DNA from: Nitrospirales bacterium LBB_01
GTDB taxonomy: Bacteria > Nitrospirota > Thermodesulfovibrionia > Thermodesulfovibrionales > Magnetobacteriaceae
NCBI GenBank assembly: GCA_004376055.2
Contig: CP049016.1
Span: 868,001 to 932,000, forward strand
Length of the DNA: 64,000 bases
Direction: 5' to 3'
Below the pieces are notes generated by a model. The model searched no databases. It was not told where the DNA came from and saw nothing but the letters and a program-made list of their open reading frames with translations. Positions 12,241 to 44,230 of this stretch are shown here, one piece after another. The translations under genes and the position numbers were made by a program. The stretch's first letter is position 1, and every line of letters starts with the position of its first letter.

Positions 12241-12540
12241 AAAAAATAAGTTGGCATTGTCGTCAACTCTGTTAATAAAAAATTGGATTCCTGCTTTCGC
12301 AGGAATGACAAAAGAAGACAGAATGACTGTAGTCCACCCTTCCTTGTCATTCCCGCCTGCGAGCGGGAATCCAGTCCTTTAATACCAAGTTGCACTCTAA
12401 ACTGTACGAATAAAGATGAGATTACCACGTCGCTAACGCTCCTCGTAATGACGGATAGGGATGCCATACAGCCTCACGCCATCATTGCGAACCCCCAAAG
12501 GGGGTGTGGCAATCTCCTCCTTTGAACGCTACTCGGTATA
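12241..12540. repeat. Two adjacent miniature repeats (palindromic type A and type B)
   Basis: This gap holds no gene. From 12283 to 12380 lies a type A element: two imperfect palindromes, GGATTCCTGCTTTCGCAGGA and ATTCCCGCCTGCGAGCGGGA, pointing at each other. From about 12380 to 12540 lies a type B element. Its ends, ATACCAAGTTGCACTC on the left and GAACGCTACTCGGTAT on the right, form an imperfect terminal inverted repeat. Its interior has CGCTAACGCTCCTCGTAATG facing ATCATTGCGAAC. The same parts recur elsewhere in the window. Confidence 0.8.
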
Positions 12541-14612: not shown

Positions 14613-14906
14613 TTAGTTAACGGAACACGGAGTTATGGCCTCAACCTCCTTAGAGTATATTTTTTTAGCCTCCTCCAAATCATAAAGGGTTTGCAGGTTT
14701 AACCAAAACTCAGGTGGAACATTAAAATATTTACCAAGCTTCAAAGCGGTTTCGGTTGTTATATTTCTTTTACCTTTTATGATTTGGCTTAGACGTGTCT
14801 GAGTTAATCCGGTTTCTTTATAGAGTCTATATACAGATATACACATAGGCATAAGAAACTCCTCTTTAAGTATCTCTCCGGGGTGAATATTGTTTAAAGT
14901 AGTCAT
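14613..14906 (-). CDS. higA: HigA-family antitoxin (XRE-type helix-turn-helix)
   Basis: The 97-residue protein starts with IHPGEILKEEFL, the hallmark of the HigA/VapI group. A helix-turn-helix follows (GLTQTRLSQIIKGKRNITTE), then the conserved PPEFWLNLQTLYDLEEAKK tail. It should neutralise HigB and repress the module. It follows the HigB reading frame, in the toxin-first order normal for higBA. AGGAGAAAATGAA precedes its ATG. The antitoxin is intact although the toxin is frameshifted. Confidence 0.9.
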   Translation of the reverse strand: MTTLNNIHPGEILKEEFLMPMCISVYRLYKETGLTQTRLSQIIKGKRNITTETALKLGKYFNVPPEFWLNLQTLYDLEEAKKIYSKEVEAITPCSVN

Positions 14907-14922
14907 TTCATTTTCTCCTATT

Positions 14923-15209
14923 TTAATGATAATCAGTTATCTCTACATCATAAGCATTATTGTTATGCATCTAAAGCATATCCGCCACTTTTCATTAATT
15001 CTTATACTCAATAGACCCTCTCTGTTTCCTTTAAGCACCTCAAGTTTATTGCCAGGAGGAACAGCCAATGTCTCAATATTTGTAGCAGCTGCGATCATTC
15101 TTAATTTTCTCCTTGCAATATTATACAAGGTGGATGGAAGTCTAATTTTTTTGGAAAAATACCCTTCCCAAATAAGCCTTGCATCTTCATTCTTAAAAGA
15201 TACTATCAC
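14923..15209 (-). pseudogene. higB: HigB-family toxin with a frameshift near the C-terminus
   Basis: HigB is a RelE-fold, ribosome-dependent mRNA endonuclease. The open frame from 15209 matches the family through LEVLKGNREGLLSIRINEKW and ICFR, then runs into an unrelated tail and stops at 14943. One frame over, directly after that point, the minus strand encodes HNNNAYDVEITDYH and a stop at 14923, which is the expected end of HigB. A single missing base after AGATG, restoring TGG for the usual Trp, would repair the gene. The intact gene would end 16 bp before higA. Either the toxin is inactivated or this is a sequencing error. Confidence 0.85.
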
Positions 15210-15372: not shown

Positions 15373-17520
15373 TTAAATGAAAAGAGGTGCTAAAACGAGA
15401 GTGATAGTGGAAAGGAGTTTAATTAACACGTGAAGCGAGGGGCCTGCGGTGTCTTTAAATGGATCGCCAACAGTGTCACCGGCAACAGCGGCCTTGTGAG
15501 CAAAGGAGCCTTTACCGCCCATATTTCCGGCTTCAATGAATTTCTTAGCGTTATCCCATGCACCGCCTGCGTTATTAAAAAACGTTGCCATTAGAATTCC
15601 GGCAATTGTTCCAACCATAATAAGCGCCGCCACAGCCTCAGCGCCCTTTCCAACCTGCTTAAACAACAATCCCACAACAATAGGGCTAAGCGTTGCTACA
15701 AGACCTGGAAGAACCATCTGCTTAAGTGCTCCCTTTGTTACGATATCAACACAGCGGCCATAATCTGGCTTCTCTGTTCCGGCTAAAATACCGGGTTTTT
15801 CCCTGAACTGGTCTCTCACGTCCTGAATGACGTAGTAAGCTGCCGTTCCTACTGCCTTAACTGCAAGCGCTGAGAAGATAAACACAAGGGCTGCGCCAAG
15901 TAGCGCTCCAACAAACACTACCGGATCAGCCAAATCAACTGACTCTATTTTATGTCCATAGTTGCTGACCTCATCAAGGTATGCTCTGAAGAGCAAGAAG
16001 GCAGCAAGTGCTGCTGAGCCTATTGCATAACCCTTTGTAAGCGCCTTTGTAGTGTTACCGGCTGCGTCAAGTTTATCTGTTCTGTTTCTTACGTCCTCCG
16101 GCTGGTCGCTCATTTCGATAATACCGCCGGCGTTGTCAGAAATTGGTCCAAAAGTGTCCATAGCTAGAACATAAGCGGCCGGCCCAAGCATTCCCATCGT
16201 CGCAACTGCTGTGCCAAAAATTCCTGCGTTTGGAAATCCAGAATGGAGCCCTAAGTAGTAGGCTATCAGCAAAGAGGCTGATATTGCAATCGCTGTAGGC
16301 GCTGTACATTCAAGTCCTATTGCCACACCGGTTATGATGTTTGTGGCAGGGCCTGTCTGACTTGACTCAGCTATGGAGCGAACAGGTCTGAACCTAAACT
16401 CTGTGTAGTACTCAGTGATGTAAATAAACACAACCGATGTCAACACACCTACAACTCCAGCCATAAACAGGTATATCCATGCGCTGGGATAGTCAGGATG
16501 TGCAAACAGAATTTTACTTGCTATAGCAAGACCAATTATGGCCAGCACAACAGTTACATAGTAACCCCTGTTAAGCCCGGCCATAGGTTCCTCGTCTTCT
16601 CTGATTTTAACAAACAAAATACCCACAATTGACGCTATTATGCCAAAAGCTCTGGCAAGCAATGGGAACATCATAACGCCTATAACCCAAAGCGGGTCAA
16701 CGCCAGGTATGCCTTTGGCCATAACGGCAGCCAAAATCATAGCTCCGATGTTCTCAGCAGCGGTGGACTCAAAAAGGTCGGCACCACGGCCTGCGCAGTC
16801 ACCAACGTTGTCGCCAACCAGGTCGGCAATAACAGCCGGGTTTCTTGGATCATCCTCTGGGATTCCTGCCTCTACCTTTCCAACAAGGTCAGCGCCCACA
16901 TCAGCTGCCTTAGTGTAAATACCGCCGCCTAACTGGGCAAACAGTGCCACAAAAGAAGCGCCAAAACCATAACCTACTATCATAAATGGAATCTTAGTGG
17001 CCTCCACGTTTGAAAATACTTTAACCAGCACATAAAGACCGGTAACACCAAGCAAGCTCATACAGACCACCATAAGGCCGGATACTGCGCCGCCCCTGAG
17101 AGCTATCTGCAGAGCATCGTTTACACTGTAACGGGCTGCAGAAGCTGTTCTTATGTTACTTCTTATACTGACCCACATGCCGATGTAACCGGCAAACAGT
17201 GAGCATATCGCCCCGAAGACAAAAGATAAGGTTATCCATATAGACAGCTCAATGCTTGAAGAGACAGGGTCAAAATCCTGGTGCTGCCTTATGATCCCAT
17301 ATCCTATGAATAACACCACCGAAAAAATCGCTGCAAGTAATACTATCGTTTTATACTGCCTTTTTAAAAAGGCATTGGCACCCTCTCTTATAGCATCCGA
17401 TATAGCTCTCATGTTGTCCGTGCCGTCATCTTTTGCTAAAACCCATTTGGCAAACATGAAAGCTACGATAATGCCAACAATGCTGATACCGAATATCAGC
17501 GCCAGCAAGACATTTTCCAT
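15373..17520 (-). CDS. hppA: K+-independent H+-translocating membrane pyrophosphatase
   Basis: This integral membrane protein couples pyrophosphate hydrolysis to proton export. The 715 residues give about 16 membrane segments. Signature motifs are IYTKAADVGADLVGKVEAG with DDPRNPAVIADLVGDNVGDC (substrate and Mg2+ site), DNAGGIIEMS, and the C-terminal FNNAGGAWDNAKKFIE with GDTVGDPFKDTAGPS. In this family the residue after GNTT separates K+-dependent (Ala) from K+-independent (Lys) enzymes. Here it reads GNTTKALTKG, so the K+-independent H+-pumping type is expected. It has its own consensus promoter and a long leader. Confidence 0.96.
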   Translation of the reverse strand: MENVLLALIFGISIVGIIVAFMFAKWVLAKDDGTDNMRAISDAIREGANAFLKRQYKTIVLLAAIFSVVLFIGYGIIRQHQDFDPVSSSIELSIWITLSFVFGAICSLFAGYIGMWVSIRSNIRTASAARYSVNDALQIALRGGAVSGLMVVCMSLLGVTGLYVLVKVFSNVEATKIPFMIVGYGFGASFVALFAQLGGGIYTKAADVGADLVGKVEAGIPEDDPRNPAVIADLVGDNVGDCAGRGADLFESTAAENIGAMILAAVMAKGIPGVDPLWVIGVMMFPLLARAFGIIASIVGILFVKIREDEEPMAGLNRGYYVTVVLAIIGLAIASKILFAHPDYPSAWIYLFMAGVVGVLTSVVFIYITEYYTEFRFRPVRSIAESSQTGPATNIITGVAIGLECTAPTAIAISASLLIAYYLGLHSGFPNAGIFGTAVATMGMLGPAAYVLAMDTFGPISDNAGGIIEMSDQPEDVRNRTDKLDAAGNTTKALTKGYAIGSAALAAFLLFRAYLDEVSNYGHKIESVDLADPVVFVGALLGAALVFIFSALAVKAVGTAAYYVIQDVRDQFREKPGILAGTEKPDYGRCVDIVTKGALKQMVLPGLVATLSPIVVGLLFKQVGKGAEAVAALIMVGTIAGILMATFFNNAGGAWDNAKKFIEAGNMGGKGSFAHKAAVAGDTVGDPFKDTAGPSLHVLIKLLSTITLVLAPLFI

Positions 17521-17732
17521 AACTCCTTAATCTCCTTGACGTTTTATTATGTACAGTTGCCGCACAATGTGCGACCTGCTCTAACCGATTACACCTGTGT
17601 GCAGCCACATTGACGCCGCTATACGCACATCTCTTATTTGCTTAGGAATGGCTAAACAGATGCAACCATATCTCAAACCGTGGGACCGCCTTGTCACCGG
17701 CAAACTAACCGGATTGTGGTTATAAACCATAA
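17521..17732 (-). ncRNA. Long, apparently structured 5' leader of hppA (unknown class)
   Basis: The promoter at 17739-17767 predicts a leader of about 210 nt before the hppA ATG. The leader is GC-richer than nearby spacers and has no open frame of note. On the minus strand, AGTTTGCCG near its start can pair with CGGCAACT near its end (one bulged base), closing a domain of about 140 nt. Inside are a 6-bp palindrome CGCACATTGTGCG and other short complementary segments. I do not recognise a known riboswitch; fluoride, c-di-GMP and ydaO-type consensus motifs are not evident. Confidence 0.4.
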
Positions 17733-17738
17733 CTTCAG

Positions 17739-17767
17739 ATTATATACTTTTTGTAGCGTATTGTCAA
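17739..17767 (-). promoter_or_regulatory. Perfect-consensus sigma-70 promoter of hppA
   Basis: On the minus strand TTGACA and TATAAT are separated by exactly 17 bp, a full match to both consensus hexamers. The site overlaps the last codon of the upstream acyltransferase gene. The predicted start of transcription is near 17732. Confidence 0.85.
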
Positions 17768-18786
17768 GTTTTTTTAACGGATAGCCTGCTGGTTTTGTAA
17801 TCGGTGAAAAAAGGATGATCATCCCACCATGAATTCAACTTCATTTCATAGAGAAAGTAAGCAAATTGCTCAGGGTGCAGTCTAACATATTTTGTCAAAA
17901 CAGCCAGGTACTTATCCAGAAGGGTTTCAGAAGTATCGCTTTCCGAAACATCTAATGCAGGCTCAACAACCATTTTTGCTACGCCGTCCCGAAGGTCAAT
18001 GAGAAACACAGGCAGTAGTGCTGTTCCGGTTTTAACGGCAAGTTTGAAGGGGGATATATTAAAATTTACGGTGCGGCCCAGAAATTGTGCCTCTGCCCAC
18101 TTTCTGCCGCCTCGTCCGGTTGAAGGAAACAGTACAACCTCATTTCTTTGCAAAGCAAGCATGACATCTCTCATAGACATATTTCTTAAACCGTTCTTGT
18201 CTCCAATGGGGATGCTTGCATTTATGAAATTTACAGGCATCAGTTTTTCCACAGCCTGAAATTTGGCTTCATTAGCGTACCAGTAAAAACCTTTTCTGGC
18301 TACTGTTGGAGGGTCTCCCTGAATAGCTACCTGGTTAACCCGATAGCCTCTGTAACCGAGAGCCGGCATAACCATCATGTAGGGTCCAAAATGAGAATTT
18401 AATAAGAGCGCCCCTTTGTTTCTTTTAAGAGCGTTGTCAAGGTGCTTTGCCCCCTCAATTGCAATATAGTCTTCAATGTTGCTGCTGTTGATTTTTCGTA
18501 GATAACAGAGTTTTGCCCATGAATTTAACTGGGTTTGAAATACAACATGCAACGTCTCCCGCGTATTGCAGCTATCATCTATTAAGCCTGATTTGTAAAG
18601 CTCCTCAAGTGTTATAATCTTGCGTTGTCTGTTTGATGACATTTGCAGGCGCGCTAAAAACGACATGATTGTATTAACCAACTCAACCGGAAACTCTGAA
18701 AAAAGCAATCTCAAATACCGCCAGTAAAGCCACTTCAGAAAAGCGGCAGGATTTAAAAACCCTCTTATTGTTTGAAGATATGCCAT
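17764..18786 (-). CDS. LpxL/HtrB-family lipid acyltransferase
   Basis: The protein resembles lipid A late acyltransferases, which sit at the inner membrane. Recognisable parts are GALLLNSHFGPYMMVMP, FPSTGRGGRKW, GTALLPVFLIDLRDG and the C-terminal PEQFAYFLYEM. In E. coli LpxL the catalytic signature is His-x4-Asp/Glu. Here the His is followed four residues later by Met (HFGPYM), so the acyl-transfer mechanism or substrate may differ. The frame opens at 18825, but the ATG at 18786 (MAYLQTIRGF) is the more natural start. Neither start has a clear ribosome binding site. Confidence 0.75.
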   Translation of the reverse strand: MAYLQTIRGFLNPAAFLKWLYWRYLRLLFSEFPVELVNTIMSFLARLQMSSNRQRKIITLEELYKSGLIDDSCNTRETLHVVFQTQLNSWAKLCYLRKINSSNIEDYIAIEGAKHLDNALKRNKGALLLNSHFGPYMMVMPALGYRGYRVNQVAIQGDPPTVARKGFYWYANEAKFQAVEKLMPVNFINASIPIGDKNGLRNMSMRDVMLALQRNEVVLFPSTGRGGRKWAEAQFLGRTVNFNISPFKLAVKTGTALLPVFLIDLRDGVAKMVVEPALDVSESDTSETLLDKYLAVLTKYVRLHPEQFAYFLYEMKLNSWWDDHPFFTDYKTSRLSVKKT

Positions 18787-18862
18787 AACGGTATATTCTA
18801 TAACAAAACCTAAACATAAATGCAAATGTTTTATGGGTAATAATTAATGACAAGAACTCAGA

Positions 18863-33961: not shown

Positions 33962-34035
33962 CGGGGCGTAGCGCAGTTTGGTAGCGTACACGGTTCGGGA
34001 CCGTGTGGTCGCTGGTTCGAATCCAGTCGCCCCGA
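33962..34035 (+). tRNA. tRNA-Pro (CGG)
   Basis: The acceptor arms CGGGGCG and CGCCCCG pair perfectly. The anticodon stem CACGG/CCGTG holds the loop TTCGGGA, giving anticodon CGG (Pro). The T arm reads CTGGTTCGAATCCAG. The CCA end is not encoded. The tRNA stands alone between minus-strand genes. Confidence 0.95.
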
Positions 34036-44141: not shown

Positions 44142-44230
44142 GGAGAGGTGGCCGAGCGGTCGAAGGCAGCCGCCTGCTAAGCGGTTGTGGGGGTAATACT
44201 CCACCCAGGGTTCGAATCCCTGCCTCTCCG
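44142..44230 (+). tRNA. tRNA-Ser (GCT)
   Basis: Acceptor arms GGAGAGG and CCTCTCC pair. The anticodon loop CTGCTAA gives GCT (Ser, AGC/AGU codons). A long variable arm and the T arm AGGGTTCGAATCCCT follow. Length is 89 nt, as expected for a type II tRNA. CCA is not encoded. Confidence 0.95.

Follow-up and report, generated by a model that had tools for sequence, protein, structure and literature searches.

A conserved, covarying hairpin in the hppA leader as a candidate cis-acting RNA element of the Magnetobacteriaceae

The window analysed is a 64,000 nucleotide stretch of contig CP049016.1 from Nitrospirales bacterium LBB_01, a member of the Magnetobacteriaceae. On its reverse strand lies hppA (15373..17520 (-), ATG at 17520), encoding a 715 aa product that matches the Pfam family H_PPase (PF03030) at 9.5e-262. 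The best solved relative of this product is 8b37, a K(+)-insensitive proton pump, which has in common with it the motif GNTTKA; the K+-dependent pump of mung bean carries GNTTAA. The Lys replacing Ala in GNTT(K/A)A is taken here to be the mark of the K+-independent type, and on this motif and the family match the product is assigned to the H_PPase family as a K+-independent H+-pyrophosphatase. Upstream of hppA is a lipid A acyltransferase-like ORF (17764..18825). Downstream, at 14613-15209 (-), a HigB-like toxin (PF05015, 3e-15) adjoins a HigA-family antitoxin (TIGR02607, 1.8e-28). Elsewhere in the window, tRNA genes were identified by Rfam at 33962-34035 and 44142-44230 (+), and a palindromic repeat, GGATTCCTGC..CGCAGGAATGACA, is present in ten copies (at 12285, 18940, 24550, 24624, 30725, 32421, 33659, 37904, 45328 and 51520), where none are expected from shuffled sequence. 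A similar copy is found upstream of hppA in locus L043, and the repeat looks like a REP-type element.

The promoter of hppA lies approximately 210 nt upstream of the initiation codon. Its -35 box, TTGACA (17762..17767 (-)), includes the TGA stop of the acyltransferase ORF and is separated by a 17 nt spacer from the -10 box, TATAAT (17739..17744 (-)). The initial annotation of this DNA had described a perfect promoter here, and this is borne out: the sequence at 17767..17739 (-) is of the sigma-70 type, matches the consensus at 12 of 12 positions and is identical in all four members of the genus. The leader then comprises a variable 5' domain of about 140 nt (17587..17730 (-)), a hairpin, GTCGCAC-ATT-GTGCGGC, of 7 bp with a 3 nt loop (17559..17575 (-)), an A/U-rich 3' tail of the hairpin element (17545..17558 (-)), AANTATA-like and partly kept in the family, and a Shine-Dalgarno region (17523..17537 (-)) with AAGGAG twice, at 17537..17532 and 17528..17523. 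No intrinsic terminator or attenuator, as a G+C-rich stem followed by a U run, was found between 17300 and 18000. The long leader was also considered as a possible repeat or mobile element; this was rejected, as the window genome has one significant copy only, the other matches listed being short, with E of at least 0.19.

The leader had been described as containing no frame, which is not right, as a 49 codon AUG frame (17581..17730 (-)) starts 8 nt after the -10 box. All four genus members have this ATG at exactly 8 nt past the -10 box, near where the transcript is expected to begin, in the window around 17732, which makes this a possible leaderless upstream frame. It is very improbable, however, that hppA is controlled through translation of a short, possibly leaderless, leader peptide. 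While the 49 and 43 codon frames of G000 and G001 end at the same TAG, those of the other two genus members have 19 and 18 codons, no amino acid conservation is apparent by eye, and the short leader of L036 lacks such an ATG after its -10 box. The frame is probably not a conserved peptide.

Complementary segments had also been proposed to close a domain of about 140 nt. The segments are present as described, AGTTTGCCG at 17706..17698 and CGGCAACT at 17562..17555. Helices of this kind, 8 bp with a one-base bulge, number 16 in the leader; 100 shuffled sequences average 13.3, and 33 of them reach 16. Across the four genus members 75% of the cells of the AGTTTGCCG/CGGCAACT helix pair, with no both-sided changes. 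This long-range helix was therefore rejected, being at chance-level frequency in the leader and without covariation in the genus.

The leader had been suggested to be responsive to a ligand or ion, of which there is no sign. A riboswitch for a ligand or ion in the 140 nt 5' domain has some appeal, in that the long leader is kept in all four genus members, those of L042 and L045 are also long, and the minimum free energy (MFE) fold of the window leader shows several helices. The whole leader, however, folds no better than shuffled sequence (z -0.97; 32 of 200 shuffles as good). The MFE pairs placed on the genus alignment have four both-sided changes; the figure for shuffles is 2.8, and 141 of the 500 do as well, in a comparison of weak power with four sequences. 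Mean pairwise identity within the genus is 59% in the 5' domain, where covariation is not above shuffles, as against 85-88% in the hairpin and ribosome-site region. Most of the family lacks the domain or has a different one, and it is missing from the short leaders of g3 and of two g2 genomes. As had been proposed, the leader matches no known riboswitch: with Rfam 15, riboswitches included, no family reached the gathering cut-off in the window leader, and there was no match in the loci of 16 relatives. A permissive search of the leader (E up to 10) gave a single snoRNA model (E 3.7, 15.2 bits where the cut-off is 43), a chance match. A consensus of the four genus leaders from RNAalifold (54 pairs, eight both-sided changes, -31.9 kcal/mol) was also considered and found unconvincing, being long-range and weak. 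No conserved multi-helix aptamer was found in the leader, with just four sequences sharing the long leader of the genus. In addition, the conserved part of the leader is too small, and its 3 nt loop presumably too short for a pseudoknot, to indicate a ligand or ion sensor. A riboswitch in the hppA leader is therefore unlikely, and for the 5' domain in particular quite improbable; the extra 140 nt in the genus of the window is most likely a fast-evolving spacer.

Conservation and covariation within the leader are instead found in the 17 nt hairpin near the ribosome site, and not in the domain of about 140 nt. The hairpin was recognised through comparison of same-subfamily hppA leaders from the family. 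All 19 family genomes have hppA, with two unreadable for this purpose: G012, in which the 5' end is off the contig, and G009, in which the gene belongs to another subfamily (47% identity). This leaves 17 readable leaders, of which 16 carry the hairpin. The sole exception is G008 (L046), which has an unrelated perfect 6 bp hairpin, ACCTGG-TTAA-CCAGGT, about 60 nt before the hppA ATG; this was located by a script, an inverted-repeat search with a 12-base minimum having found none, and a stem of this kind arises in 9% of shuffles.

When the family genomes were searched with a 33-position covariance model, the top-ranked match was the hppA leader in 16 of the 19, at E values between 2.9e-8 and 4.6e-4. 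Among 395 genomes from across the phylum there are ten matches at E<=0.001, every one in this family. Within the order, 176 genomes yielded 20 with a match at E<=0.02, these being the 16 family genomes and four others (L185-L188, 0.009-0.017), which are known by scores alone and stand against about 3.5 matches expected by chance. Additional matches in G004 (a second, E 0.004), G009 (E 0.06) and G008 (E 0.62) showed no visible resemblance to the leader in the raw sequence. A strict hairpin pattern finds exactly one site per genome in 11 of the 19 family genomes; ten of these coincide with hppA leaders, and the eleventh is on a separate contig of G016 and leads into hppA there. In other phyla, nothing alike was seen by eye before hppA in the 18 loci read, of 80 fetched.

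The hairpin is downstream of the predicted promoter in all 16 loci. The promoter-like sequence that matches best upstream, in a stretch of up to 330 nt, scores 10-12 of 12 in each of the 16 hairpin-bearing leaders, the weaker of these calls being uncertain. The nearest ORFs upstream vary between genera, which indicates that the hairpin belongs to hppA. A ribosome initiating at the hppA start codon would be expected to cover the mRNA to just short of this site. Relative to the presumed 5' end, it lies some 140-160 nt away in the genus of the window and close by in short leaders such as L036-L038, L040 and L041. Words of the form GGTATGT or CATACC occur just upstream of the hairpin in L036, L039 and L045; these could pair with the hairpin arms to form an alternative structure and are not universal.

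Covariation was counted in 15 leaders (14 distinct), the sixteenth, L147, having been found later and lying outside the model. In the 14 distinct rows 98% of stem cells are paired and four of the seven pairs have both-sided changes. None of 500 shuffles was as high, and slid partners pair in 8-47%. Two of the 105 stem cells are unpaired by other mismatches (L040 and L047). As kinship among sequences can mislead plain shuffles, the stem was also simulated without structure on a quickly rebuilt hppA protein tree at two rate settings. The observed pairing was reached in 1.5-2.9% of the runs and the observed both-sided changes in 0.9%; jointly, they were reached in none of 3000 runs at either setting. 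Compensatory changes above this tree-aware null argue for a conserved cis-acting RNA hairpin. The possibility that it is a functionless product of chance, in a drifting leader behind a promoter, is consistent with the ordinary folding of the leader overall; it is given very little weight, however, because the hairpin covaries on the tree and is kept while the upstream sequence diverges.

The same site could act as DNA, with a dimeric transcription factor binding it as a 17 bp dyad located downstream of the promoter. The dyad is near-perfect, and in L036, L039 and L045 there are additional upstream words, GTATG or CATAC, that resemble half-sites. Where one side of the stem has changed, however, the unequal half-sites read on the transcript strand as 10 G-U and 0 A-C, whereas the simulation gives approximately equal numbers. 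A G-U pair holds in RNA and is an ordinary mismatch between DNA half-sites, and the bias therefore favours RNA action over a DNA operator. The distance from promoter to site ranges from 21 to 192 nt, while that from the site to the ATG is held to 26-45 nt, and there is one site per genome, at hppA, although a regulator with a single target could still account for the latter. A DNA operator is on balance rather unlikely. Position, covariation and wobble pairs, as read from the sequences, point to an RNA hairpin acting on the hppA mRNA at initiation or in its decay.

Such a hairpin may be no more than structural, acting constitutively to free the ribosome site from upstream pairing or to slow decay from the 5' end, with no partner and no regulation. 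Its location just upstream of the ribosome site, and near the presumed 5' end in the short leaders, would suit this role, as would the different hairpin of L046 at a similar place. Any stem would then do, yet it is the stem sequence, not the fold alone, that is kept across genera, and the middle U of the loop is invariant. This conservation of stem letters and loop U suggests specific recognition by a factor. In addition, while the hairpin dominates the predicted full-leader folds in 11 of 15 leaders, its probability is 0.01-0.34 in the other four (L039, L040, L042 and L047), which counts against a purely constitutive RNA fold. A constitutive structural role is accordingly seen as a possible but lesser alternative.

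The best explanation, held tentatively, is that a small cis-acting RNA element, the hairpin with its A/U-rich tail, controls the hppA mRNA, at translation or at decay, through recognition by a trans-acting factor. The strong promoter would transcribe a leader carrying the hairpin and tail, and the hairpin would act as RNA at its near-constant position ahead of the hppA start codon. An RNA-binding protein or nuclease would recognise both its sequence and its shape, and this recognition would set how the mRNA is translated or how long it lasts. Weighing against this explanation are the four leaders in which the hairpin is not predicted to dominate, the leader of L046, which lacks it, and the two stem cells left unpaired. 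That an RNA-binding factor specific to the family reads the hairpin, coupling translation of hppA to energy or pyrophosphate status, is a more speculative extension and is considered doubtful. Of the remaining alternatives a neutral stabiliser ranks highest, followed by a single-target DNA operator and then by a hairpin that arose by chance.

Full-text literature searches found no paper on RNA-level control of bacterial hppA or of translocating or membrane-bound pyrophosphatases, and passages of PMC5069720, PMC8914203 and PMC5069961 contain nothing on hppA leader RNA. The hairpin seems to be undescribed, with no such family in Rfam. If the proposed recognition is true, a dedicated RNA operator would be, within the literature searched, the first known cis-RNA control of this pump. 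The element, if real, is a small feature through which control of the pyrophosphate-driven pump could be tested in an uncultivated bacterial family. It also illustrates that conservation in a long leader can reside in a short hairpin instead of a striking long domain.

Lineage-specific hairpins in 5' UTRs are of a well-known kind. The fluoride (crcB) and Na+ riboswitches are the ion riboswitches to be expected near pyrophosphatases, and the likeness to these is in the presence of a leader on an ion- or pyrophosphate-related gene. Unlike them, the hppA leader has no Rfam match and its conserved core is the 17 nt hairpin only. The 5' mRNA-stabilising hairpins of the ompA type are also leader hairpins, and in some hppA relatives no more than about 25 nt separate the element from the presumed 5' end. 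In the genus of the window, however, it is far from that end, and it is conserved in sequence. A further comparison is with translational operators, the short hairpins of bacterial 5' UTRs to which proteins bind. Although hppA encodes a membrane pump rather than a self-regulating RNA-binding protein, and the binder of its hairpin is putative, the element shares with these operators a small, sequence-conserved stem-loop near the ribosome site of one gene, with compensatory changes.
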